Part shown: positions 21,784-34,185 of the stretch, in pieces
How positions within the stretch are numbered: the stretch's first letter is position 1
Layout: each line of letters opens with the position of its first letter
Assembly: GCA_026003755.1 (NCBI GenBank)
Contig: BPHV01000005.1
Location: forward strand, 186,001 to 250,000
Direction of reading: 5' to 3'
DNA: 64,000 nt
Origin: Candidatus Roseilinea sp.
Lineage (GTDB): Bacteria; Chloroflexota; Anaerolineae; J036; Brachytrichaceae
The notes under the pieces: model-generated
Told to the model about the DNA's origin: nothing
Databases searched by the model: none
The model's input: only the letters and a program-made list of their open reading frames with translations
Translations under genes and position numbers: made by a program

Positions 21784-23163
21784 TCAGTCGAAAACTGGCA
21801 GCGTTTCGGCGCCCGTCCGCTGCGCCCACCGGACGCGCGCCTCCCCGACAAAAGCGACGCTGCCAAAAATGCAAACGGGTTCATCCCCCTTGCTGGCGAC
21901 ATCCAGCGCGTCAGCCAAGCTGGGCAGCGCCACGGCGCGCGCGATATCCGCCTGGGCGGCAATCGCCAACAGGTGTTCGGCCGGGATGGCGCGCGGCGAG
22001 TTGGATTGCTGCGAGAAAATCCATCGCGTCGCGCGCGGGTTGAGCGCCTTGATCATGCCCTCCGCGTCTTTATCCTTCAGCGTGCCGAAGATGAAGACCC
22101 AGCGGCGGCCTGGGAAGACTTCAGCCAGCGTCGCTCCGAGCTTGTTAGCGCTGTCCAGGTTGTGCGCGCCATCGGCAACAACGGGGGGATCGGCCCGCAG
22201 GATCTCAAAGCGGCCCGGCCAGGCCGCTAGCCGCAACCCATCGCGCACCGCGCGCGCGCCGAAGTCGTGCGCGCCCGTGGCCAGCAGCGCATCGCGGATC
22301 ACATCAATCGCGGCTATCACGGTCGCCGCGTTTTCGATTTGATGTTTGCCGAGCAGGGCAATTTCATACCAACCCTCCAGATCGTTGACGAACGGCTTCT
22401 CCTTGCTGCGGATGAGCGACACCTTCTTGATCTCGAACGATTGCTTGACGAGCGAGGACGGCCCCGGCGTCCAGCGCCAATGTCGCCCGATCACGGTGAG
22501 CGGCGCGCCGCGTTCCTGCGCGACGCGCTCGATCACAGCCATGGCGGCTGCCGGCTGTGACTGGCTGATCACCGGCACGCCCGGTTTAATGATGCCGGCC
22601 TTCTCCCCGGCAATCTCGCTCAACGTGCTGCCGAGGATGTGCTGATGGTCATAGCTGATCGAGGTGATAATCGCCGCCTGCGGGGTGATCACATTGGTCG
22701 CGTCAAGCCGGCCGCCCAAACCGACTTCGATCACCGCCCAATCCACATCTTGGTGTGAGAAGTGTAGAAAGCCCATGGCGGTGATCGCCTCGAACGTGGT
22801 GAGGCCGGGCGCTGCTTCGGCCGCCTCTTTGACCTTCTGCGCGAGCGCGCCAACCGCCTCCGGCGCGATCAGCTCGCCGTTGACCTGAATGCGCTCGCGA
22901 AAGCTGCTCAGGTGCGGCGAGGTATAGAGACCAACTTTCAAGCCGAGCTGCTTGAGGCATGACGCCATGAGCGCACACGTCGAGCCTTTGCCCTTCGTGC
23001 CGGCCACGTGGATCGTGCGATAGCGCTCCTGTGGGTTGCCTAGCCGAGCCAGCACGGCGCGCATCCGGTCGAGGTTCAGCGTCTCGGGCGTGTATGCGCC
23101 TATTGAAACGCGTTCGTAATTGGCGAGCGAATACAGATACTCCAGCGCTTCGGTGTAAAGCAT
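21784..23163 (-). CDS. folC: Folylpolyglutamate synthase / dihydrofolate synthase
   Basis: A 459-residue Mur-ligase-like enzyme adding glutamate to folates. The ATP loop is GTKGKGSTCALM (about 55-66), then YTSPHLSSFRERI with the conserved SPH, GLGGRLDATN, and the C-terminal domain containing VVADGAHNLDSANKL. The ATG at 23163 (MLYTEALEYLYSL) is the typical family start; upstream in-frame starts would add a non-conserved stretch. The gene is immediately followed by lon and is divergent from purM, with about 98 bp between them holding an AT-rich patch (CATATAT) that may include promoters. Confidence 0.93.
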   Translation of the reverse strand: MLYTEALEYLYSLANYERVSIGAYTPETLNLDRMRAVLARLGNPQERYRTIHVAGTKGKGSTCALMASCLKQLGLKVGLYTSPHLSSFRERIQVNGELIAPEAVGALAQKVKEAAEAAPGLTTFEAITAMGFLHFSHQDVDWAVIEVGLGGRLDATNVITPQAAIITSISYDHQHILGSTLSEIAGEKAGIIKPGVPVISQSQPAAAMAVIERVAQERGAPLTVIGRHWRWTPGPSSLVKQSFEIKKVSLIRSKEKPFVNDLEGWYEIALLGKHQIENAATVIAAIDVIRDALLATGAHDFGARAVRDGLRLAAWPGRFEILRADPPVVADGAHNLDSANKLGATLAEVFPGRRWVFIFGTLKDKDAEGMIKALNPRATRWIFSQQSNSPRAIPAEHLLAIAAQADIARAVALPSLADALDVASKGDEPVCIFGSVAFVGEARVRWAQRTGAETLPVFD

Positions 23164-23261
23164 GGCATCATGCGTAATCGCCGCGTTAGGCGTGTGCCCC
23201 CCATCGCGCACAGCCGACAAACGCCGAGCGATCGCCGACGTGAATCATATATCATTCGCGC

Positions 23262-24207
23262 ATGGCGCCTTCCGCTGATGCGGCTGCCGGAGTAGACATT
23301 GGTGCCGGAGCCGTCACATTGATGGGAGCGGCGGTTCGATCTACCTATACGTCGGAAGTGCCGGCGGGCATCGGCAGCTTTGGCGGCTTGTTCGATGCAT
23401 TACCCTTGCGGGACATGCGTGCGCCGGTGTGGGTGGCGAGCACGGACGGCGTCAGCGCCAAGGTCGAACTGGCTGCTGCCTTCGGCCGATATGCGTCCAT
23501 CGGCCACGACATCGTGAATCATTGCATCAACGACATCCTCATACAAGGCGTGCGCCCGCTGTTCTTCCTCGACCCCATCGCAGCAGCGAAGCTCGGCCCA
23601 AGCCAGGTCGCCGCAGTGGTGAGCGGCATGGCCGAGCCATGCCACCTGGTCGGCTGCGCGCTGCTGGGCGGCGAAACCGCCGAAATGTCCGGCGTGTATG
23701 TCGAGGGCGCGTTCGACGGAGCCGGGACGACCGTCGGCGTCGTCGAACGCGAGACGTTCCTGCTTCGCCGAAGCGAGATCGCGGCAGGCGACGTGCTCAT
23801 CGGCCCGGCGTCGTCCGGTCCTCGTGCGAACGGCTACTCGCTGATCCGCAAGGTGCTGGCCGACCGGCTGGCCCTGGTTCAGCCCGATGATCCGCCCGTG
23901 CAAGCCCTGCTCGCGCCGCACCACGGCTATCTGGCCCTGGTCGAGCGGGCGCACATCACCGGCGGCGGGTTTGTCGAGAACACCCCTCGCGTGTTGCCGC
24001 CCGGATTGCGCGCGGCGATGGCCGATGCCGCCCTTCTTCGCGCTCATTCAGTTGGCGGGCCGCGTCAGCGACCAAGAGGGGCGGCGTGTGTTCAACGGCG
24101 CCGTTGGCATGGTCATGATCGTTGCGCCGGAACATGTCAATGCCATTCAGGCGGCGTTGGGCGAGCCGTCTTGGGTGATCGGGCGCGTGGCCCCCGCTGA
24201 CCCTTGA
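23262..24207 (+). CDS. purM: Phosphoribosylformylglycinamidine cyclo-ligase (AIR synthetase), with a frameshift near 24025
   Basis: Purine biosynthesis enzyme making AIR from FGAM. The N-terminal domain has GIGSFGGLF, STDGVSAKVELA and CINDILIQGVRPLFFLD; GGETAEMSG and SGPRANGYSLIRK follow. After HITGGGFVENTPRVLPPGL (about residue 250) the frame is lost, and the rest (PPFFALIQLAG, RRVFNGAVGMVMIV) is read one frame on. Joined length is about 314 residues against roughly 340-350 in the family, so some codons may also be missing at the junction. Either a sequencing indel or a recent mutation; loss would normally impose purine auxotrophy. The stop is 16 bp before the GT2 gene. Confidence 0.85.
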
Positions 24208-24223
24208 TGGCCTGTGAGCGACC

Positions 24224-25204
24224 ATGCGCGTCACCCTCGTCTTCACCGTGCTCAACGAGGCCGACAGCCTGCCCGCACTGCTCGATTCGATTGCCGCGCA
24301 GACGCGCCGACCGGATGAGATCGTCGTGTGCGACGGCGGCAGCCGTGATGCTACCGTCGCCCTCCTGCGCGGCGATCGGCGCCTCGAGATTCGCGTGATC
24401 GAAGCGCCGGGCGCGAACATCTCGCGCGGGCGCAATCTGGCCATCGCCGCAGCCTCTCACGACGTGATCGCCTGCACCGACGCCGGCGTGCGGCTCGCCC
24501 CGCGTTGGCTCGAAGCCATCGTGGCGCCGCTGACGGATGAGCGCCAACACGCCGTCGCCGGCTTCTTCACGCCAGACCCACGCACGACGTTCGAGGTGGC
24601 TATGGGCGCCACGGTGCTGCCCGAACTGCGCGACATCCGGCCTGAGGCCTTCCTGCCGTCATCGCGCTCGGTCGCCTTCCGCAAGTCGGCTTGGGAAGCG
24701 GTGGGCGGCTATCCGGAGTGGCTGGACTACTGCGAAGACTTGATCTTCGACATGGCGCTGCGCGAGCGGTGGGGCGCATTCGCCTTCGCGCCGGAAGCCG
24801 TGGCGCACTTTCGCCCACGCGGCTCGCTGCGCGCGTTCTTCAAGCAATACTATCGCTACGCGCGGGGCGATGGCAAAGCCAATCTCTTCCTCGAACGGCA
24901 TTTGGTGCGCTATGCGACGTATCTGATTGCGCTGCCGGCGCTGCTGGCCGGCCTGGTGGGGGGCGCGCCGATGGTCAAGCTGCTTGCCGCAGCCTTGCTG
25001 CTGGCCGGCGCTGCGGCATATACGCGAGCGCCCTATCGCCGGCTGCGTCGCTTATGGTCGCATCTAACCTGGCCGGAGAGGCTGAAAGCCATCGCCCTTG
25101 TGCCGGTCATTCGCGTCGTGGGCGACATGGCGAAGATGCTCGGCTATCCGGTCGGCGTTGGGTGGCGATTGCAACACCGGCCGGGCCGCCGATCACATCG
25201 CTGA
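24224..25204 (+). CDS. Family 2 glycosyltransferase
   Basis: A 326-residue GT-A fold glycosyltransferase. The N-terminus VTLVFTVLNEADSLPALLDS and VCDGGSRDAT bind the nucleotide sugar; TDAGVRLAPRWL is the DxD-like metal site region; YPEWLDYCEDLIFDMAL (about 167-183) contains the ED-x-x-F/D acceptor motif. The C-terminal third has two hydrophobic segments, suggesting membrane association. Acceptor and donor are unknown. It follows purM by 16 bp and overlaps the convergent beta-glucosidase gene by 12 bp. Confidence 0.88.
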   Translation: MRVTLVFTVLNEADSLPALLDSIAAQTRRPDEIVVCDGGSRDATVALLRGDRRLEIRVIEAPGANISRGRNLAIAAASHDVIACTDAGVRLAPRWLEAIVAPLTDERQHAVAGFFTPDPRTTFEVAMGATVLPELRDIRPEAFLPSSRSVAFRKSAWEAVGGYPEWLDYCEDLIFDMALRERWGAFAFAPEAVAHFRPRGSLRAFFKQYYRYARGDGKANLFLERHLVRYATYLIALPALLAGLVGGAPMVKLLAAALLLAGAAAYTRAPYRRLRRLWSHLTWPERLKAIALVPVIRVVGDMAKMLGYPVGVGWRLQHRPGRRSHR

Positions 25205-26533
25205 GCCGGATGGCTCGATCACCGCGTTCGCGGCGATTACATCGCGCAGGTAATAGCCGCTGTCCTTGATGGTGCGCTTCTGCGTGGCGTAGTCCACGTG
25301 CACGATCCCGAAGAACTGCTGATAGCCGAACGACCACTCGAAGTTGTCCATTAGCGACCAGACGAAGAAGCCACGCAGGTCGGCCCCGTCTTGGATCGCG
25401 CGGTGGGCCGCGGCGAAGTGTGCGCGCAGATAAGCGATGCGCCGCTCGTCGTGCACGCGCCCATCCGTGATCTGATCGTCGAATGACGCGCCATTCTCGG
25501 TAATGTAGAGCGGCGTGCGCCCGCGCGTTGCGCGGTGTAGCTTCATCAGGATGGCGTAGAGCCCTTCCGGCCTCACCGCCCAGCCCATGCGTGTGAATTC
25601 TGGATCGTCGTCGTACACGACGCCACGTTTGGCGCTGATGCGGGTGGCCGTGTAGCAGTTTATGCCGATGAAGTCGTTGCGCGCGGCGATCATCGCCAGG
25701 TCGCCGGCGCGAATATCGGCGGCGCCGGCCATGCGGTCGAGCATGCGCTGGCTGTAGGCACCGGTCAGGATCGGCTCGGCGAAGCCTTCGTATTGCCAGT
25801 CGAAGTCCTGCTCGGCGGCTTGGCGGTCTTCGTCGCTGTCGGTGGCCGGTAGGCGTGGCTCGAAGTTCAGCGTGATGCCCACGCGGGTCTCGGCGTCGCC
25901 GGCGGCGCGGATTGCTTGCAGGCCCAGCGCGTGCGCCAACAGCAGGTTGTGGGCGGCGCGCGCAGCGAGCGCTTTGTCCTGGTAGCCCGGCGCGTGCATC
26001 CCGAATTCGTAACCCAGGTAAGCGCTGCACCACGGCTCGTTTAGCGTGATCCAGTCTTTCACGCGGTCGCCCAGGGCGCGCACGACGACCGCAGCGTAAT
26101 CGGCGAACCAGCCGGCGCTGTCGCGCGTCGTCCAGCCGCCCTGCGCGTTGAGCGCCGAGGGCAAATCCCAGTGATACAGCGTGACGAACGGACGAATCCC
26201 CGCAGTGAGCAATTCGTCCACCAGCCGGTCGTAGAAAGCGACGCCCCTCGGATTGACCGCACCGCGACCTGCGGGCAGGATGCGCGGCCAGGCGATGGAG
26301 AAGCGATAAGCCTTCAGGCCGAGCTGCTTCATTAATGCGACGTCGTCTCGATAGCGGTGATAGTGGTCGCAGGCGACGCTGCCGTCGCTCCCATCGGTGA
26401 TGGCGTCTTTGTAACGGCAGAAGTCGTCCCAGATAGATCGCCCGCGGTTGTCTTCGTTCGCTGCGCCCTCGATCTGATACGAGGACGTGGCTGTGCCCCA
26501 CAGGAAACCAGGAGGAAAGGAATGTGTGCTCAT
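25193..26533 (-). CDS. Family 1 glycoside hydrolase (beta-glucosidase)
   Basis: A 446-residue cytosolic retaining beta-glycosidase. The GH1 N-terminal signature FPPGFLWGTATSSYQIEGA is intact. The acid/base is Glu166 in TLNEPW and the nucleophile Glu346 in YITENGAS. No signal peptide is visible. The ATG at 26533 is preferred to a TTG at 26542. It likely cleaves cellobiose or other beta-glucosides; no transporter is next to it. It overlaps the end of the convergent GT2 gene. Confidence 0.95.
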   Translation of the reverse strand: MSTHSFPPGFLWGTATSSYQIEGAANEDNRGRSIWDDFCRYKDAITDGSDGSVACDHYHRYRDDVALMKQLGLKAYRFSIAWPRILPAGRGAVNPRGVAFYDRLVDELLTAGIRPFVTLYHWDLPSALNAQGGWTTRDSAGWFADYAAVVVRALGDRVKDWITLNEPWCSAYLGYEFGMHAPGYQDKALAARAAHNLLLAHALGLQAIRAAGDAETRVGITLNFEPRLPATDSDEDRQAAEQDFDWQYEGFAEPILTGAYSQRMLDRMAGAADIRAGDLAMIAARNDFIGINCYTATRISAKRGVVYDDDPEFTRMGWAVRPEGLYAILMKLHRATRGRTPLYITENGASFDDQITDGRVHDERRIAYLRAHFAAAHRAIQDGADLRGFFVWSLMDNFEWSFGYQQFFGIVHVDYATQKRTIKDSGYYLRDVIAANAVIEPSGSAM

Positions 26534-26569
26534 GATGTGCAATGGAGCGTAAGCGTTGGAGATGAGAGA

Positions 26570-27037
26570 TTACCGATCGGCAATTTGAACGAGTTGGTCG
26601 GCGGTGAAGGCGAAGGCGCGCCCGAAACCACCGATGAACCGCCCGCTTGTCGGCGTGATGCGGAACAGGTCGAAATCGGGTAAGCCGAACATGATCTCGC
26701 TGGACGGCAGACGCGCTAGGAAGCGCGCCTTGGACTGCGCATAGTCTTCGCTCGCTTTTTCAATCTTGACGGCGTTCCCTTGCAGCGTCACGCGCGCCAG
26801 CGACATGACCTCGGCGCGGCCGTCGTCGGCTTCGGCGATCAGCAAGCTGCACTTCGGGTTGGCCAGCAGCATGCGCTTGTGCGGCGCGAGATCGCTGAGG
26901 TGAATCAGCAGGCCGGTCACCCCTGGCTCGGGGACGTACGACGTCATCGCGGTAAACGGCTCGTCGTGGTCGCAAACGGCGAGCGTTGCCAGCCGGCGCG
27001 CAAGGATGAAATCGCGAACTTCGGTGAGCGCATTCAT
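26570..27037 (-). CDS. Pyridoxamine 5'-phosphate oxidase-like FMN-binding protein
   Basis: A 155-residue split-barrel protein of the PNPOx/HugZ-like group. Family features: LATLAVCDHDEPFTAMTSYV strand pair near the N-terminus, LSDLAPHKRMLLANPKCSLLI (the Asp-x-x-Pro-His-Lys FMN/heme region, about 48-66), and FLARLPSSEIMFGLPDFDLFRI. Such proteins bind FMN or heme and may act in heme breakdown or general oxidoreduction; the exact role cannot be set here. It lies 36 nt upstream of the beta-glucosidase start and probably shares a transcript with it. Confidence 0.8.
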   Translation of the reverse strand: MNALTEVRDFILARRLATLAVCDHDEPFTAMTSYVPEPGVTGLLIHLSDLAPHKRMLLANPKCSLLIAEADDGRAEVMSLARVTLQGNAVKIEKASEDYAQSKARFLARLPSSEIMFGLPDFDLFRITPTSGRFIGGFGRAFAFTADQLVQIADR

Positions 27038-27090
27038 GCATGAGCCGATGCTGATGGATGAGGGATCGCGCGCGGGGCCGCCCTCATGCT

Positions 27091-30000
27091 TTAAGGCGCA
27101 GAGGCCGAAGCGCGTCTTAAACGAACGTCATCCAGATAGAACGTCGTACCGGCGGCGCCGTTGCCTGCAGTGATCGCCAGCGCTTTGAGGTCGGCGAGGC
27201 CCTCCAGCGGCACGCGCACTTCGCGCCACGCGTCCGCCGGTGCGTCAAACGTGACCGTCACCGGCGCGCCATCGCCCGACGAGTAGAGCGCTACGGTGAG
27301 GCCTTTCACGCCACTCGGTCCGCCGTTCACCCAGAACGAGAGCGCCTCGAAGTTGCCCGCGTCTAGGGGCGACTCCGCCTGAAGTCGGAGGGCGCCATTG
27401 GGCTGTTCGAACTGCACAGCGATGGCATACAAGGCGCGCGCAGTGCCCGCCTCGGTGAACGACACGCGCGCGCCCAGTGAGGCGTCGCGCCAGCCTTTGG
27501 CCAGCCGGTTGCTGAACAGTGCAAGGAAGGGCGGCGGCGCCGGTGGTTTCTCTGCCGAGGGCGGCAGGAGCGTGATCTCGTCAATGTAATACTCGGCCGA
27601 CGAACCCAGTTCGCCCAGGTCTTGGATGTTGATGCGCTTGATGGTCTGCGGACTGCCCAGCAAGCTGAGCGGGACTGTGAATGTCTGCCAGCGGTTGGGC
27701 ACTACGTCGAAGACGTAGCCGGGCGTCTCGCCGCCGATGTCGGTGGTTTGCAGGTAGAGTTGCATCCGCCGGGGCAGGTCGTAGGTGGCGAAGATGCGCA
27801 AGAGCACACCGCCGTAGTCCTTCGCGGTGAGCGTGACCGGCGAGCGCAGCGACAGGCCGCCGGTGGCGTTGCCGCGCACCGCGATTGAGCGGCTGCCGAA
27901 CAGCACCGGCTGAGTGTTTCGGAAGTTGACGCGGCTCTCCCACGACCAGTTCTCCCAGCCGGTGTCCAGGTAGCCATCGCGATACACCACCCGGCGACCA
28001 TCGGGCTGGGGGCCGACGTTCGGCGCCGGCAACGGCGTGCTGAGCGCCTCGCGCACCAACTGCACGCTGTCCACGTAGAATGGCGCCTGCTTTTCGCCGC
28101 TGGCATCCTGTAAGTTGATGCGCTTGATCGTGGTCAGGTCGCCGAAGTAGCTGAGCGGCACGGTGATCGGCGTCCACCCGCCGGCCGGCGCCTCGAAGAG
28201 CACGGCGCGCGAGTCGCCGCCGATGTCCTCTTGCTGGAGGAAGAGGCGCAGTTGCCGCTCGCCCTGTTCGCCGCCATGCACCCACAGGATCAGCGTGCCG
28301 TAGTCCTGCGCGCTAAGCGTGACCGGCGAGCGCAGCGACAGGCCGGCGTAACCTTGGGTGTAGCGCACCGCAATCGAACGCCGGCCCAGCGCCGGTTTGG
28401 CATTGTCGAAGTCTATCTCGCTCTCCCACGACCAGTTCTCCCAGCCGGGCGCGAGCTGATCGGCGTATACAAACCCGTTGGCAAGCAGCGGGTTACCACT
28501 CGTCGGCGGCGCTGCCGGCCCACCGCCGGCAGGGGGCGCGTCGGTGGGGGGCGCCGGCACTTGCAACTCTACCGGCCGGCCCACCAGCACGATGTTGTCC
28601 AGGTAGTAGGTCTGGGGCTGGCCGCTGCGGTCTTGGAGGTTGATGCGCTTGATGGCCTTCACATCGCCCAAGGCGCTCAATGGGATCGAGACCTGGTGCC
28701 ATCCGCCGGCGGGCACGTCGAACGCCAGGCGCTTGCTCTCCTCGCCCTCGTCCGCCTGTTGGATGAACAGTTGCAGGCGACGCGGCCCCTGATCGCCGGC
28801 GTGGATGCTGAAGCTCAACCCGGGGTACTGCGCCAGGCTCAGTGGCTCCTTGAAGCGCAGCGACAGGCCGGCGTAGCCCGCCTGATGTTGCACGGCCAAC
28901 GAGCGCAAACCCAGCGCCGGCTGGGTGTTGGCGAAGCTCAGCGTGGTCTCCCAGGACCAGTTCTCGAACAGGTTGGATACCGACTCATCGAAGACAAGCA
29001 AGTCGCCCGGCATCAGGTTGGCCATGTTGCTCAGGTCCACGCCGCCGGCGTCGCGCAAGAAGCAGATGTTGTCCAGGAAGACGGGCGGCTGGCCCTGGCC
29101 GGTGCGCTCCTGGAAGTTGATGCGCTTGATGGCCGGCACGTAGCCGAGCAGGCGGAAGGGGATGACGACCTGCGTCCACGTGCCTGAGGGCACGTCCATG
29201 TGGAAGCGGCGCGACTCCTCGCCCTCATCCGTGCCGTGCACGAAGAACATCAGTTGGCGCACGCCGGGGTCCTCGCCGCCACTGATCCAGAACGAGATCG
29301 CCTCGTAGTCGGCGCGGCTGAGCGCGACCGGCGTGCGCAGCGAGAAGCCGGCGTAGCCCTCGCGGTGCTGGAAGGCCAGCGCCTTACCGCTGAGCGCGTA
29401 GGGGTGCTCGCGTGCCACGTTGGTGTTCCACGACCAATCCTCCCAGCCGTCGGCAAGTGCATCGTCGTAGAGCACGTAGGCGCAGCCCGCTATGTTGGAC
29501 GGGCGCGGCGCCGGCGGCGCCGGCGGGGGCGGCGGTGGTGGGGGGGGCGGTGGGGGCGGCACCGGCGCGTTGCTCAGGCATACCGTGTCCACATAAAACG
29601 TGGGTTGGCCGGCGCCGGTGCGGTCTTGGATGTTGATGCGCTTGATGGTGGCCGGGCTGCCGAACGCCCACAGCGGGATGCCGATCTGCGTCCACTGACC
29701 GGCCGGCGCATCAATCGGCACCGTGTTGGTGTCGCCGCCGGTGTCGTTCTGTTGAATGAACACCTGCAACTGACGCACGCCGCTGGTGCCGCCGTGCACC
29801 CATAAGAGAATGGAGGTGTAACTGCTGCCCGGCAAACCAGGGTCCACGCGGAAGGATAGACCGCCGTATGACGACATGGTCGCCTCAATGGCGAAGGTAC
29901 CCGCCTGCACAACCGTGTCGCTGGCAAAGTCGTAGCTACCGTTCCAAGACCAGTTGTACCAGTTTGGCGCCAGGGCATCCAGGTAGATCGGCGTGGTGCA

Positions 30001-31119
30001 GTTCGGCGGCGGTGGAGGCGGTGGCGGCACCGGCGTGTTGCTCAGGCACACCGTGTCCACATAAAACGTGGGTTGGCCGGCGCCGGTGCGGTCTTGGATG
30101 TTGATGCGCTTGATGGTGGCCGGGTTGCCCAGCGCGTCAAGCGGGATCACCACTTGCGTCCACTGGCCAGGTGTCGCATTGAACGGTACGGCGTTGGTTT
30201 CGTTGCCAGGGCCGCCGCTATCGGTGAGGTGGACGAACACCTGTAGCTTGCGCTTGCCGCTTGCGCTGCCGCCGTGCACCCAAAAGCGAATGGAGGTGTA
30301 ACTGCTGCCGGGCAAGCCGGGGTCCACGCGGAAGGACAGGCCGGCGTAGCCGCTGGTCATGTTTGCCTCGATGGCAAAGTTGCCGTCCTGCAAGGTCGTG
30401 CTGTGGGCAAAATCATGCGGGCCGCCCCACGACCAGTTCTGCCAGCCGGCGGCGAGCGCGTCAAGGTAGACCGGCGTGGTGCAGTCCGGTGGCACCGTCG
30501 GTGCTGCCAGCAACTTGATCTCATCCACGTAAAACGTGGGCTGGCCGGCGCCGGTGCGGTCTTGGATGTTGATGCGTTTGATGATGGTCGCCGGAGGGCT
30601 GTTGAACGCGCTGAGCGGGATGACGACCTTTGTCCACTGGCCGGCTGGCGCGTCAAACGGCACGGCGTTGGTCTCGTTGCCAGAGCCGCCGCTATCGGTG
30701 AGGTGGACGAACACTTGCAGTTGGCGCGTGCCGCTGGCGCCGCCGTGCACCCAAAACTGAATGACGCTGTAGTTGGCGCCCGACAAGCCCGGATCCACGC
30801 GCAGCGACAGACCGGCGTAGCCGCTGGTCATCGTGGCCTCGATAGCGTTGCTCCCTGCGTAAACCGTGCCGGTGTAGCTTAAGTTGTAGCTGCCGCCCCA
30901 CGACCAGTTCTGCCAATTCGTGCCGAGGGCATCGGCATAAACGACCTCACCACCTAGGGCGAACGCAGTGCGCGCGGGTATGCGCACGGATGCATCGTTC
31001 AGAGCAAACCACAGAAGAGCTAACGCTGCGCCGATCCGCGGAACGCATTCAGCGATTACTTCTACAACAGGTCTTCTACTGCGTCCCTCATTCGCACGTT
31101 CTCGCGTCGAGATTGACAT
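27091..31119 (-). CDS. Exported protein of eight tandem WxNWSW beta-sandwich repeats
   Basis: A 1342-residue protein with no recognisable catalytic domain. A basic N-terminus and hydrophobic segment (about residues 29-42) look like a signal peptide. From about residue 58, eight repeats of roughly 150-165 residues follow. Each opens with a Tyr/Phe-x-Asp strand and WxNWSW, then a GYAGLSLR strand, ISFWVHGG-like and RQLQVFVHLTD-like strands, WTQVVIPL, IKRINIQDRTG and a final YVDxI strand. The last copy is diverged (WRDASLG). Linkers are proline-rich, with 8 and 13 consecutive prolines after copies 2 and 3. The layout resembles galactose-binding-like carbohydrate modules. No cell-wall anchor or C-terminal helix is seen. 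Surface binding or an adhesin role is inference. Confidence 0.8.
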   Translation of the reverse strand: MSISTRERANEGRSRRPVVEVIAECVPRIGAALALLWFALNDASVRIPARTAFALGGEVVYADALGTNWQNWSWGGSYNLSYTGTVYAGSNAIEATMTSGYAGLSLRVDPGLSGANYSVIQFWVHGGASGTRQLQVFVHLTDSGGSGNETNAVPFDAPAGQWTKVVIPLSAFNSPPATIIKRINIQDRTGAGQPTFYVDEIKLLAAPTVPPDCTTPVYLDALAAGWQNWSWGGPHDFAHSTTLQDGNFAIEANMTSGYAGLSFRVDPGLPGSSYTSIRFWVHGGSASGKRKLQVFVHLTDSGGPGNETNAVPFNATPGQWTQVVIPLDALGNPATIKRINIQDRTGAGQPTFYVDTVCLSNTPVPPPPPPPPNCTTPIYLDALAPNWYNWSWNGSYDFASDTVVQAGTFAIEATMSSYGGLSFRVDPGLPGSSYTSILLWVHGGTSGVRQLQVFIQQNDTGGDTNTVPIDAPAGQWTQIGIPLWAFGSPATIKRINIQDRTGAGQPTFYVDTVCLSNAPVPPPPPPPPPPPPPAPPAPRPSNIAGCAYVLYDDALADGWEDWSWNTNVAREHPYALSGKALAFQHREGYAGFSLRTPVALSRADYEAISFWISGGEDPGVRQLMFFVHGTDEGEESRRFHMDVPSGTWTQVVIPFRLLGYVPAIKRINFQERTGQGQPPVFLDNICFLRDAGGVDLSNMANLMPGDLLVFDESVSNLFENWSWETTLSFANTQPALGLRSLAVQHQAGYAGLSLRFKEPLSLAQYPGLSFSIHAGDQGPRRLQLFIQQADEGEESKRLAFDVPAGGWHQVSIPLSALGDVKAIKRINLQDRSGQPQTYYLDNIVLVGRPVELQVPAPPTDAPPAGGGPAAPPTSGNPLLANGFVYADQLAPGWENWSWESEIDFDNAKPALGRRSIAVRYTQGYAGLSLRSPVTLSAQDYGTLILWVHGGEQGERQLRLFLQQEDIGGDSRAVLFEAPAGGWTPITVPLSYFGDLTTIKRINLQDASGEKQAPFYVDSVQLVREALSTPLPAPNVGPQPDGRRVVYRDGYLDTGWENWSWESRVNFRNTQPVLFGSRSIAVRGNATGGLSLRSPVTLTAKDYGGVLLRIFATYDLPRRMQLYLQTTDIGGETPGYVFDVVPNRWQTFTVPLSLLGSPQTIKRINIQDLGELGSSAEYYIDEITLLPPSAEKPPAPPPFLALFSNRLAKGWRDASLGARVSFTEAGTARALYAIAVQFEQPNGALRLQAESPLDAGNFEALSFWVNGGPSGVKGLTVALYSSGDGAPVTVTFDAPADAWREVRVPLEGLADLKALAITAGNGAAGTTFYLDDVRLRRASASAP
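29571..30128. repeat. Near-identical 90-bp direct repeats within the octarepeat gene
   Basis: 29571-29660 and 30039-30128 are 90-bp copies differing at two positions, spaced 468 bp (156 codons, one repeat unit). They encode the conserved INIQDRTGAGQPTFYVDTV end of repeats 2 and 3. A third, less exact copy is near 30526-30580. This points to recent unit duplication or gene conversion. Confidence 0.9.
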
Positions 31120-31276
31120 GGCTAGGAGATGCTCCCGCTGCCGCTAAGGGTAAATATTCTCGGCATTTTAGCCCATGTTTTGAGCAAGCCCTAACCGCCA
31201 CAAGCGCTGCTAAAAGTCGCGCGAATCGGACTACGCCAGGCGGGCGACACGGGCATCGGCATCAAATCTTGTCCAC

Positions 31277-31445
31277 TCAACGCGCTGTCTCACCCAGGGG
31301 GTGTTCTCCTCGGATAAGCCGGCCGGTGCCGTAGTCTTTGGCCTCTCGGCGCGAGTCAATCAGCGGCTTGGTGATCGCCGGCGCCGCCGACACGCCAACC
31401 GCCAGGCCGGCGTAGGGGATGGCTGTGAGGCGGTCGAGAGAGAGC
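31277..31445 (-). pseudogene. pyrE: Fragment of orotate phosphoribosyltransferase (PyrE)
   Basis: The minus strand reads LDRLTAIPYAGLAVGVSAA, then a stretch matching KDYGTGRLIRGEHPLGETA, which I recognise as the middle of PyrE (substrate loop region before the PRPP-binding DDL motif). The N-terminal half and the PRPP-binding end are missing; a TGA follows GETAR. It lies downstream of the PyrF-like gene on the same strand, as in PyrF-PyrE pairs or fusions, separated by heptamer repeats. In 31120-31276 I see no gene. Confidence 0.65.
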
Positions 31446-31464
31446 CCAGAACCCGGAGTCCAGC

Positions 31465-31527
31465 ATTCTGTATTCTGTATTCTGTATTCTGTATTCTGTA
31501 TTCTGTATTCTGGATTCTGGATTCTGT
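31465..31527. repeat. Tandem heptamer repeat (ATTCTGT)n
   Basis: Nine consecutive 7-bp units starting at 31465. Six are ATTCTGT, two are ATTCTGG (31507-31520), and the last is ATTCTGT. The tract lies between the PyrF-like gene and the pyrE fragment. It is a simple tandem repeat without spacers, so not a CRISPR array. Confidence 0.97.
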
Positions 31528-31605
31528 GATCTTCTGCGCTATTACTTGGGCGACGCGCTTCAGCGCGGCCGGATGCGAGACCAAGCGGGATGCGCAATGC
31601 CGGCG

Positions 31606-32466
31606 CTACGGCGCACCCAGGCTACGCATCTGCTCGACCCACTGCAGCGCGGCGGCACGGGCCGCTTCGGCGAAGTCGGCCTTGCGCGAGGCGTAAATCA
31701 CCGAATGCGAGACGCTGATCACCGGCCCCAGGCCATCGCGCGTTCGCCCGAATTCCACTGCGGCGGCCAGGTCGCTGTCCTGCGCCCCCACGCTGAGGAT
31801 GAGGAACGGCAACTGTGGGGACAATGCGCGGATGCGCCGCATCTCCTCCGGCGCGGTCGCGCTCACTACCAGCCCGCATGCGCCGGGTCCTTCGGCATGC
31901 CAACGATTGGCCATCAGCGCAACCTTCTCATAAAGGCGCAGCGTGAGCGCGTTGGCGCGCCGGTCATCCATAGCCGGCCGGACCTCTACTTCCAGGTCTT
32001 GCAACTCCCAGGCGTGCGCGTTGCTCGTGCGCGCCATCACGAACACGCCCCGGTCGGCATATTTCAGGAAGGGGCGAATGGCATCGCTGCCGATGTAGGG
32101 GGAGAGCGTGACGGCGTCGGCGCGGAACTGCTCAAAGGCGCCGCGCGCATAGGCTTCGGCCGTGCGCCCGGCGTCGCCGAATGTGCCGTCGAGGATGATC
32201 GGGATATCCGGCGGAATCAGGCGCACGATGCGTTCTAGGGCGATCATGCCGGCGGCGCCCTCTGCCAGGTAGAAACCGAGGTTGGGCTTGTAGGCGCAGA
32301 CTAAATCGCTGGTCGCCTCGATGATGGCGCGGGCGAAGGGGAGCATCGGCTCATCATAGGGTTGGATCGGCAACGGCGTATGCGCTACCACGATGTCCAG
32401 GCCGATGCACAGATAGGAGCGATTCTTGTGCTGCGCTTGCGCGAGCTTTTCGATGAAGGCGGACAT
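31606..32466 (-). CDS. Orotidine 5'-phosphate decarboxylase-like protein (type 2) without the catalytic lysine
   Basis: A 286-residue TIM barrel clearly of the type-2 PyrF family: SYLCIGLDIVV, AYKPNLGFYLAEGAAG, RTAEAYARGAF, TLSPYIGSDAIRPFL, VVSATAPEEM and SVGAQDSDL are in family order. The catalytic Asp-x-Lys-Arg-x-Asp tetrad motif (usually DAKRGD) reads Asp93-Gly-Thr-Phe-Gly-Asp98, so Thr95 replaces the catalytic Lys. The phosphate-gripping Arg of the late SRGI motif reads His254 (VSHSV), and the PGIGAQGG loop reads SVGAQDS. The frame is intact. UMP synthesis by the known mechanism is unlikely. It could be a decaying gene (a pyrE scrap lies downstream) or a changed activity. Confidence 0.85.
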   Translation of the reverse strand: MSAFIEKLAQAQHKNRSYLCIGLDIVVAHTPLPIQPYDEPMLPFARAIIEATSDLVCAYKPNLGFYLAEGAAGMIALERIVRLIPPDIPIILDGTFGDAGRTAEAYARGAFEQFRADAVTLSPYIGSDAIRPFLKYADRGVFVMARTSNAHAWELQDLEVEVRPAMDDRRANALTLRLYEKVALMANRWHAEGPGACGLVVSATAPEEMRRIRALSPQLPFLILSVGAQDSDLAAAVEFGRTRDGLGPVISVSHSVIYASRKADFAEAARAAALQWVEQMRSLGAP

Positions 32467-32481: not shown

Positions 32482-34185
32482 TTAGCCGGGCAGATAGTAG
32501 CTGATGGTGAGCCCACTGTTGGGATAGGCGACTTCATCCACCAACCGATGACTGCGCACCGCGGCGAACGCGCGCACGATGCGCTGGCGCCACGCGTTCT
32601 TGTTGCGCATGTCGTCGGTTTGATACAGCGGCGACGATTCATCCACGCGGATGAGCGTGACCTGCGCGCCGGGATTCTCGTCCAGCCAGCGTTGCACGCG
32701 AGCGATGTCGTTCGGCCCTTCCACCGGCGGCGCGTCGTATTGGATCGGATGCGGGGTGTTGGCGAATGCCGGCAACGGGCGCAGCCGCCACTCGAACAGC
32801 GGCGGGCTAAGCTCGCCGAAGGTGCCGATGATGAGCACCGGTCGGTCAGCTTGCTGCCACTGCACGATCTGATGCGCAGCGGCGCGCAGGTCGTCGGCGA
32901 GATGACCGGCCCACACGGGCTGTAAGCGCGGCAGCCAGGTCAGCCAGCTCCACGACGCAACTGCAAAGAGCGCGAGGATCGAGACGAAGAAGGGGAGATT
33001 TGAGATTTGAGATTGGGGAGTAGGGAGTGGGGAGTGTAAGTCATGATGCACAATCGCTAATCTCCAATCTCTAATCGCTTTGACCAATTCTGCGAAGCCC
33101 AGCCCCGTCAACAACCAAAGCGATGGGAAGAGCGGCGTGATGTAGCGATCGGCTTTGAGCGGATGCAGCGTGGCCAGCGTGAAGCCAAGCGCGAAGAACA
33201 CCGCCAGCAGCATGACGCCGGGGTGGCGGATGCGCGCCACCGCCCAGGCAGCGCCGACCAGCGCCGCGCCGGCCAACAGCGGGCTGGGCATCAGCCAGTA
33301 GAGCGTCGTCCGCACATAGAACAGCAAATTCTCGGAGCTCCAGAACGGATAGCCGCTGTCTTCATTGGTGACGAAGAAGCGGAAGTCCCGCCACTTCACC
33401 TCGGTTGGCACGATATCCGTCCCGCCGAAGAACCAGAACAGGACACCCGCAACGAGCGGCGCATACAGCGCGAAAATGGTGGATGGGGACGTTGAGACTG
33501 GGCGATCGGGCGCTCCGGCGCTGCGCCTCGTTCGGAGCAGGCGGAGGCGTTCGCCGAGGTCCACGATGCCCACGGCTGCGATGGCAAAAGCGGCGTAGTT
33601 GAACTTGGTGAGGAAGGCGAAGTACAGCGCGCAGCCGGTGAGGAAGAACCAGAGCGTGCGCCGTGTGCGCAGCGCTTGCAGGAAACACCAAAATGCGACC
33701 AAGACGACGAACGCCACCGGCGTCTCCTGCATCGCCCAACTGCTCGCGAATAACCAACCTGGGGCGCTCAGCGCGATCAACCCGCTGACCAGCCCGGCCA
33801 ACGGTGCCAGCTCCGGGCGAATCGAGTAGGCGATGGCGCATGCCATGAGCGTCGTGGCAACGAGCATGATGTAGGCGAATAGGCGCGCGCTCTCGTCGCT
33901 GCGCCCTAGGATGCCGAGGAACGGCGCCTGGAGCAAGGAGAAGCCCGGCGGCCATAGGGTCTGGATGTGGAAGTCGCCCCACAGCGCGCGCAGGTCGAGC
34001 GCCAGGATGTCGCGCAGGATGTAGTAGCCTGGCAGGCTATGCGCGGCTTCGTCGAAGTTGAGCGGCGGCGCAGGCGCGATCAAGCGCAGGAAGACTTCAC
34101 GGCCGATGATGATGGAGATTAGCGCGAGCGCGCCGGCGACGAGCCACGTGCGGGCTTTGGGCGACACGCCGATCAGTATACTCAC
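32482..34185 (-). CDS. GT-C-fold (GT39/ArnT-like) polytopic glycosyltransferase-like protein
   Basis: A 567-residue protein with about 11 membrane helices. The first periplasmic loop holds PPLNFDEAAHSLPGYYI, the acidic DE motif of GT-C transferases that use polyprenyl-phosphate sugars, and WPPGFSLLQAPF follows. A soluble C-terminal domain of about 130 residues ends the protein. The GTG at 34185 is the likely start (GTG at 34170 is an alternative); longer readings run antisense through the next gene. Transcription is divergent from the YfhO-like gene with only about 15 bp between, so promoters must lie within coding sequence or be compact. An in-frame heptamer insert at 32996-33077 encodes part of a loop. 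Confidence 0.8.
   Translation of the reverse strand: MSILIGVSPKARTWLVAGALALISIIIGREVFLRLIAPAPPLNFDEAAHSLPGYYILRDILALDLRALWGDFHIQTLWPPGFSLLQAPFLGILGRSDESARLFAYIMLVATTLMACAIAYSIRPELAPLAGLVSGLIALSAPGWLFASSWAMQETPVAFVVLVAFWCFLQALRTRRTLWFFLTGCALYFAFLTKFNYAAFAIAAVGIVDLGERLRLLRTRRSAGAPDRPVSTSPSTIFALYAPLVAGVLFWFFGGTDIVPTEVKWRDFRFFVTNEDSGYPFWSSENLLFYVRTTLYWLMPSPLLAGAALVGAAWAVARIRHPGVMLLAVFFALGFTLATLHPLKADRYITPLFPSLWLLTGLGFAELVKAIRDWRLAIVHHDLHSPLPTPQSQISNLPFFVSILALFAVASWSWLTWLPRLQPVWAGHLADDLRAAAHQIVQWQQADRPVLIIGTFGELSPPLFEWRLRPLPAFANTPHPIQYDAPPVEGPNDIARVQRWLDENPGAQVTLIRVDESSPLYQTDDMRNKNAWRQRIVRAFAAVRSHRLVDEVAYPNSGLTISYYLPG
32996..33077. repeat. Composite heptamer repeat inside the GT-C gene
   Basis: Six consecutive 7-bp units at 32996-33037 (AGATTTG twice, AGATTGG, then GGAGTAG, GGAGTGG, GGAGTGT). 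After a 19-bp spacer come three units in the opposite sense (CTAATCT, CCAATCT, CTAATCG at 33057-33077), so the outer parts are inverted repeats. The frame stays open and encodes a loop around HSPLPTPQSQISNL. The GGAGTAG unit also occurs at 49772. Confidence 0.85.

Follow-up and report, generated by a model that had tools for sequence, protein, structure and literature searches.

The OMP decarboxylase PyrF is among the best-studied catalysts and has been treated as purely metabolic. In Roseilinea, its active type-2 form (TIGR02127/PF00215) is encoded directly before pyrE and pyrD, and a bifunctional PyrF-PyrE of the UMP synthase type (NF004034; the Leishmania protein 3qw4) is the active enzyme in Thermoflexus and in genera g2 and g5. 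Enzyme folds that have become inactive and are nevertheless kept by selection are known in general as pseudoenzymes (review PMC10211241). A literature search lying largely outside the subscription journals found nothing that links orotidine decarboxylase with pseudoenzymes, and nothing relevant on PyrF moonlighting or on pyrimidine auxotrophy in Roseilinea or Thermoflexus.

The window analyzed here, a stretch of 64,000 nucleotides, comes from the genome of a hot-spring bacterium, Candidatus Roseilinea (G000; 3.34 Mb, 5 contigs, 95% complete), whose family, Roseilineaceae, belongs to the order Thermoflexales (PMC8446752). It contains a pyrF-like gene (31606..32466, minus strand) with an intact frame of 286 amino acids from ATG to stop, as the preliminary description had reported. 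The product passes the TIGR02127 (pyrF_sub2) profile with 196.4 bits (cut-off 110.6) and matches PF00215 with 62.7 bits; its AF2 model (pLDDT 85.8) has the barrel fold of OMP decarboxylase, and the best PDB matches to this model are all OMP decarboxylases (top entries 4mjz, 3qw3 and 3r89, E down to 8e-21), which are also the first PDB matches for both of the models made. The window protein shares family, length and fold with type-2 PyrF, corresponds in gene position to the active Roseilinea gene that precedes pyrE and pyrD, and is 91% identical to the active PyrF of the related genome G003. It differs from these enzymes in being without the catalytic Lys, the phosphate-binding Arg and the glycine loop, and in that the pathway it would serve is gone. 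With respect to the bifunctional enzyme, to whose PyrF half it is homologous, it is a standalone protein without the OPRT half.

Three changes in the active site, each noticed beforehand, stand out in an alignment with 35 active relatives. Thr replaces the catalytic Lys at codon 95 (32182..32184, minus strand), so that the D-x-K-x-x-D motif is broken even though D93 and D98 are kept; His replaces the phosphate-binding Arg at codon 254 (31705..31707, minus strand); and residues 225-231 (31774..31794, minus strand) read SVGAQDS in place of the G(V/I)GAQGG phosphate loop. K95, P224, Q229 and R254 are each present in 35/35 of the active relatives, and the loop G(V/I)GxQGG in nearly all. The Phe of DGTFGD, where the motif cited in the preliminary description has Arg, is normal and no damage, as active relatives read DGKFGD (DGKFGDIG).

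An ordinary active pyrF disfigured by a sequencing or assembly error would be suggested by the oddity of these residues and nothing more, and we regard it as hardly credible. The nearest named genome, Candidatus Roseilinea sp. NK_OTU-006 (G002), encodes a PyrF-like protein 94% identical to that of the window; it reads Ala95, His254 and GAQDS, and shares R254H, G202S, G230D, G231S, N251S and the loss of K95, while pathway partners are missing as well. Because the same damage occurs in an independent genome, base-calling error is excluded. The sister copies differ from each other at positions 95 (T/A) and 225 (S/I).

Inactive copies are not confined to this pair. Within the Roseilinea genus they are found in G000, G002 and G008; in other genera of the family in G009, G010, G012, G013, G016, G017, G021 and G022; and in Thermoflexus in 7/7 genomes searched. 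The copies of G009 and G021 are presumably inactive although they keep Lys95 and Arg254, as the glycine loop and the majority of the remaining ligand residues are lost. On well-supported branches, the tree requires the inactive state to have arisen at least three times, once for G000 and G002, once for G008, and at least once in an older set that comprises several long branches and includes Thermoflexus. In genomes of this older clade the pathway has been lost or a fused PyrF-PyrE is present; G012, G016, G021 and the Thermoflexus genomes carry active-looking fused enzymes of this kind in addition to the inactive copy. All 21 of the family's good genomes have a pyrF frame free of stops, so that relatives do not show the random decay with stop codons that had been named beforehand as evidence against an inactive but retained protein. 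With regard to annotation, inactive copies tested from other genera score 33-87 bits against TIGR02127, below the cut-off, and that of G008 scores 123.8. With NCBIfam, the proteins of the window, G002 and G008 would all be named as active PyrF, and UMP synthesis would be falsely predicted in auxotrophs.

A barrel re-tuned for another substrate is an explanation that has precedents, since evolution has put the OMP decarboxylase fold to other uses, in KGPDC and hexulose-phosphate synthase. In its favor, every inactive copy retains D93 of the catalytic tetrad, and every one outside Thermoflexus retains D24 as well. However, the inactive lineages have no common new residue at positions 95, 98, 102, 148, 224, 229 or 254, the phosphate-binding Arg and loop are lost, and conservation has shifted to helices away from the mouth of the active site. 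A new active site shared among the inactive copies was looked for in the alignment, and none was found. Because positions 95 and 225 differ between sisters, the phosphate site is gone and the lineages have decayed differently, the active site has been released from selection and not re-tuned. Of the two interpretations offered in the preliminary description, a new enzymatic activity thus finds no support and is highly improbable, and a pseudoenzyme agrees with the loss of catalytic Lys, phosphate Arg and glycine loop from a protein whose frame and fold are kept. Judged from its sequence, the window gene encodes such an OMP decarboxylase pseudoenzyme.

The metabolic setting of this protein has also changed. 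In a profile search of G000, the window protein is the sole PF00215 match; no second PyrF or PyrE was found, and pyrE, pyrB, pyrC and pyrD gave none over the cut-off, only the weak matches expected from related families. PyrE, the source of OMP, is therefore absent, and upp, which encodes uracil salvage, is present. This gene content indicates that G000 is a de novo pyrimidine auxotroph that has lost pyrB, C, D and E and relies on Upp for UMP, as had been anticipated for the case that the genome held no other pyrF. Total pathway loss of this kind is also seen in G006, G008, G010, G013, G017 and G022; in G002, pyrC, D and E are gone and pyrB contains an in-frame TAA. The pathway is kept in G001, G003, G004, G005, G007 and G011, where pyrE lies directly behind an active pyrF. 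In G006, whose loss looks recent because this genome is sister to the pathway-bearing G003, the active site is nearly intact (S148G, I99F).

The remains of pyrE lie downstream of the window pyrF, and the earlier proposal that the pyrF-pyrE pair had been dismantled here is borne out. What had been described as a PyrE fragment is in fact a pseudogene in two blocks, identified by tblastn and blastn with the G003 pyrE: a 5' part (31528..31584, minus strand) and a 3' part with frameshifts and stops (31229..31438, minus strand), split by a heptanucleotide microsatellite (31465..31529) that is found at the same place in G002. The open reading frame called at 31277-31597 is a mixture of frames. As the remnants in G000 and G002 have a common 5' deletion junction and a common repeat insertion, pyrE died before these genomes diverged.

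Selection on pyrF was estimated from ω (dN/dS) in custom-written pairwise and branch codon models. The background ω of pyrF in the Roseilinea genus is 0.05. Since the split of G000 and G002 it has been 0.20, which rejects 1 (2ΔlnL 19.1; P about 1e-5), and on their stem branch it is 0.17 (2ΔlnL 11.0); because pyrE was already broken in their ancestor, this argues for selection on pyrF after loss of the pathway. Other inactive copies compared also reject 1, with ω of 0.054 in G008 (2ΔlnL 69.9; dS saturated, as in the old clade), 0.08-0.09 in pairs from g2 and g3, and 0.16-0.26 in Thermoflexus. Between G000 and G002 the pyrE remnant has 31/230 differences plus indels, about a neutral rate, and pyrF has 38/858 and no indels (Fisher P 5e-6). 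Within pyrF the constraint is uneven, as ω is 0.075 for residues 1-92 and 0.37 for residues 93-286, which alone reject 1 weakly (2ΔlnL 5.6).

It is possible, though clearly not the reading we favor, that this pyrF is a pseudogene in the making, which simply decays after pathway loss and in which no stop or frameshift has so far arisen; if the window copy is considered by itself, this proposal is a serious one. The fourfold rise of ω over the background in the G000/G002 pair is consistent with it and, together with the weak rejection for residues 93-286, counts against a retained second role. The different drift of positions 95 and 225 in the two genomes, and the fact that other pathway genes are gone or, like pyrB of G002, broken, also fit with decay. 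Few stops would be expected in the time elapsed: only 2.3% of random substitutions produce a stop here, so that the 38 differences would yield about one, and for a pair this young an open frame is a weak argument on its own. The argument for selection rests on the ω tests and on the older lineages, for which the saturation of dS in G008 and the old clade must be kept in mind. In these lineages inactive copies keep their frame and the same sequence blocks, and Thermoflexus keeps an inactive copy beside an active fused enzyme, both of which count against simple decay. Loss of the gene does happen elsewhere in the class, where 9/20 genomes without a PyrF match have neither pyrB nor PF00215, in a contrast set that was chosen for lacking PyrF and so gives no rate of loss. 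Stops, frameshifts and an ω near 1, the marks of a pseudogene, are present in the adjoining pyrE and absent from the window pyrF, which displays those of a pseudoenzyme, namely missing essential catalytic residues and purifying selection on the protein (weaker for residues 93-286). The sequence comparisons show that the decarboxylase active site has been erased, with purifying selection still acting on the remainder of the protein.

To locate this constraint, positions with a conservation of at least 94% among active relatives were counted separately for active-site loops and for the rest of the protein; the changes fall on the loops. G000 and G002 keep 25/38 such cells in the loops vs 69/72 elsewhere, G008 keeps 4/19 vs 30/36, and the Thermoflexus inactive copies keep 21/133 vs 104/252. 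Columns invariant in inactive copies of two families define one preserved block at residues 31-85 (32212..32376, minus strand; PLPIQPYDEPMLPFARAIIEATSDLVCAYKPNLGFYLAEGAAGMIALERIVRLIP), which spans helix 1, strand 2 and helix 2, and columns invariant in inactive copies define another at residues 258-273 (31648..31695, minus strand; YASRKADFAEAARAAA), at the start of helix 8. The columns fixed in both families include P31, P33, D38, P40, P43, F44, R46, A68, E69, G70, G73, E78, R79, R82, P85, A259 and S260. In the models the preserved residues map to helices 1, 2 and 8 or to the loops before them, and these helices are presumably neighbors in the barrel, as known for this fold. Inactive lineages thus keep residues of these helices that most active fused PyrF-PyrE enzymes are without: P33, P43, E69, E78 and D264 occur in 17-18/18 inactive copies, are common in active standalone enzymes, and occur in 0/11 of the active fused enzymes compared. 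The copy of G016 (L039:5045-5659), only 205 amino acids long, keeps little beyond the N-terminal block and helix 8, and so represents the preserved part in a naturally minimal form.

The simplest account of these data is a second role that is independent of decarboxylation. On balance, we think it probable that the standalone PyrF of Thermoflexales has such a non-catalytic role and turns into a pseudoenzyme when decarboxylation is no longer needed. The standalone protein would have had this function before catalysis was lost; its main seat would be the face of the barrel made up of helices 8, 1 and 2, with D38, P43, R46, E69, E78, R79, R82, Y258, S260 and D264 as candidate residues, and the protein would most likely act as a scaffold or regulator that binds another protein. 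Decarboxylation may become dispensable through loss of the pathway or through the presence of a fused PyrF-PyrE, after which only the second function would be selected and the active site would decay, repeatedly giving rise to pseudoenzymes. For the broader proposition that this function predates the split of Roseilineaceae and Thermoflexaceae, that the protein outlives UMP synthesis and that at least three independent conversions occurred, the chances seem about even. Against a second role, G006 is without the pathway yet keeps Lys, Arg and loop. Compared with pseudoenzymes in general, this conversion is distinctive in recurring within one bacterial order. A PyrF retained after the loss of both its pathway and its active site naturally separates catalysis from any second role. 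If the proposal is true, natural knock-outs of catalysis have revealed that a textbook enzyme moonlights. Thermoflexus, a genus in which an inactive form is found, has a species in culture, Thermoflexus hugenholtzii.

The gene neighborhood bears on a further alternative, that pyrF is kept for coupling to the upstream gene or for another reason at the nucleic-acid level, and not for its protein. The pseudo-pyrF starts 15 bp behind a PMT_2-type glycosyltransferase gene (32482..34131, minus strand; the ORF caller extends the frame to 35088), an order also found in genera g1, g4 and g6. However, the neighbors differ in g2, g3, g5 and Thermoflexus, and in residues 1-92 dS is not lowered (0.18) while dN is, so that the constraint acts on amino acids; coupling is accordingly very improbable. 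By genus, pyrF lies beside the glycosyltransferase, YifB/5-formyl-THF cyclo-ligase, Uma2/UvrD-like or DUF58/VWA genes (names beyond PMT_2 read from sequences). This variation also weighs against the second role that we favor, as across the genera compared no constant neighbor names a partner.

Several other features were observed in these genomes. Of the two contigs of G164 that encode a pseudo-PyrF, one is identical to the contig of G136 (L149/L150), and G164 is probably two species mixed in one MAG. Two adjoining membrane-protein genes (clusters c2 and c4) are nearly identical between G002 (L052:11856-16413) and G007 (L056:3483-7806), with dS of 0 and 0.05, and both genomes differ strongly from other species there; either Roseilinea species have recently recombined here or one of the MAG contigs is chimeric. 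G000, G002 and G006 share the genes that replace pyrE-pyrD (window 22001-31119; L052, L054), despite which G006 groups with G003 in pyrF and the genes upstream, and the replacing block may have been moved by recombination. This block includes a gene (27091-31119, minus strand) for a 1342-residue protein with about seven repeats of a beta-rich unit of about 150 residues (..GWENWSW..YAGLSLR..IKRINLQD..FYVD..) and proline-rich linkers, which is probably a secreted carbohydrate-binding or surface protein.
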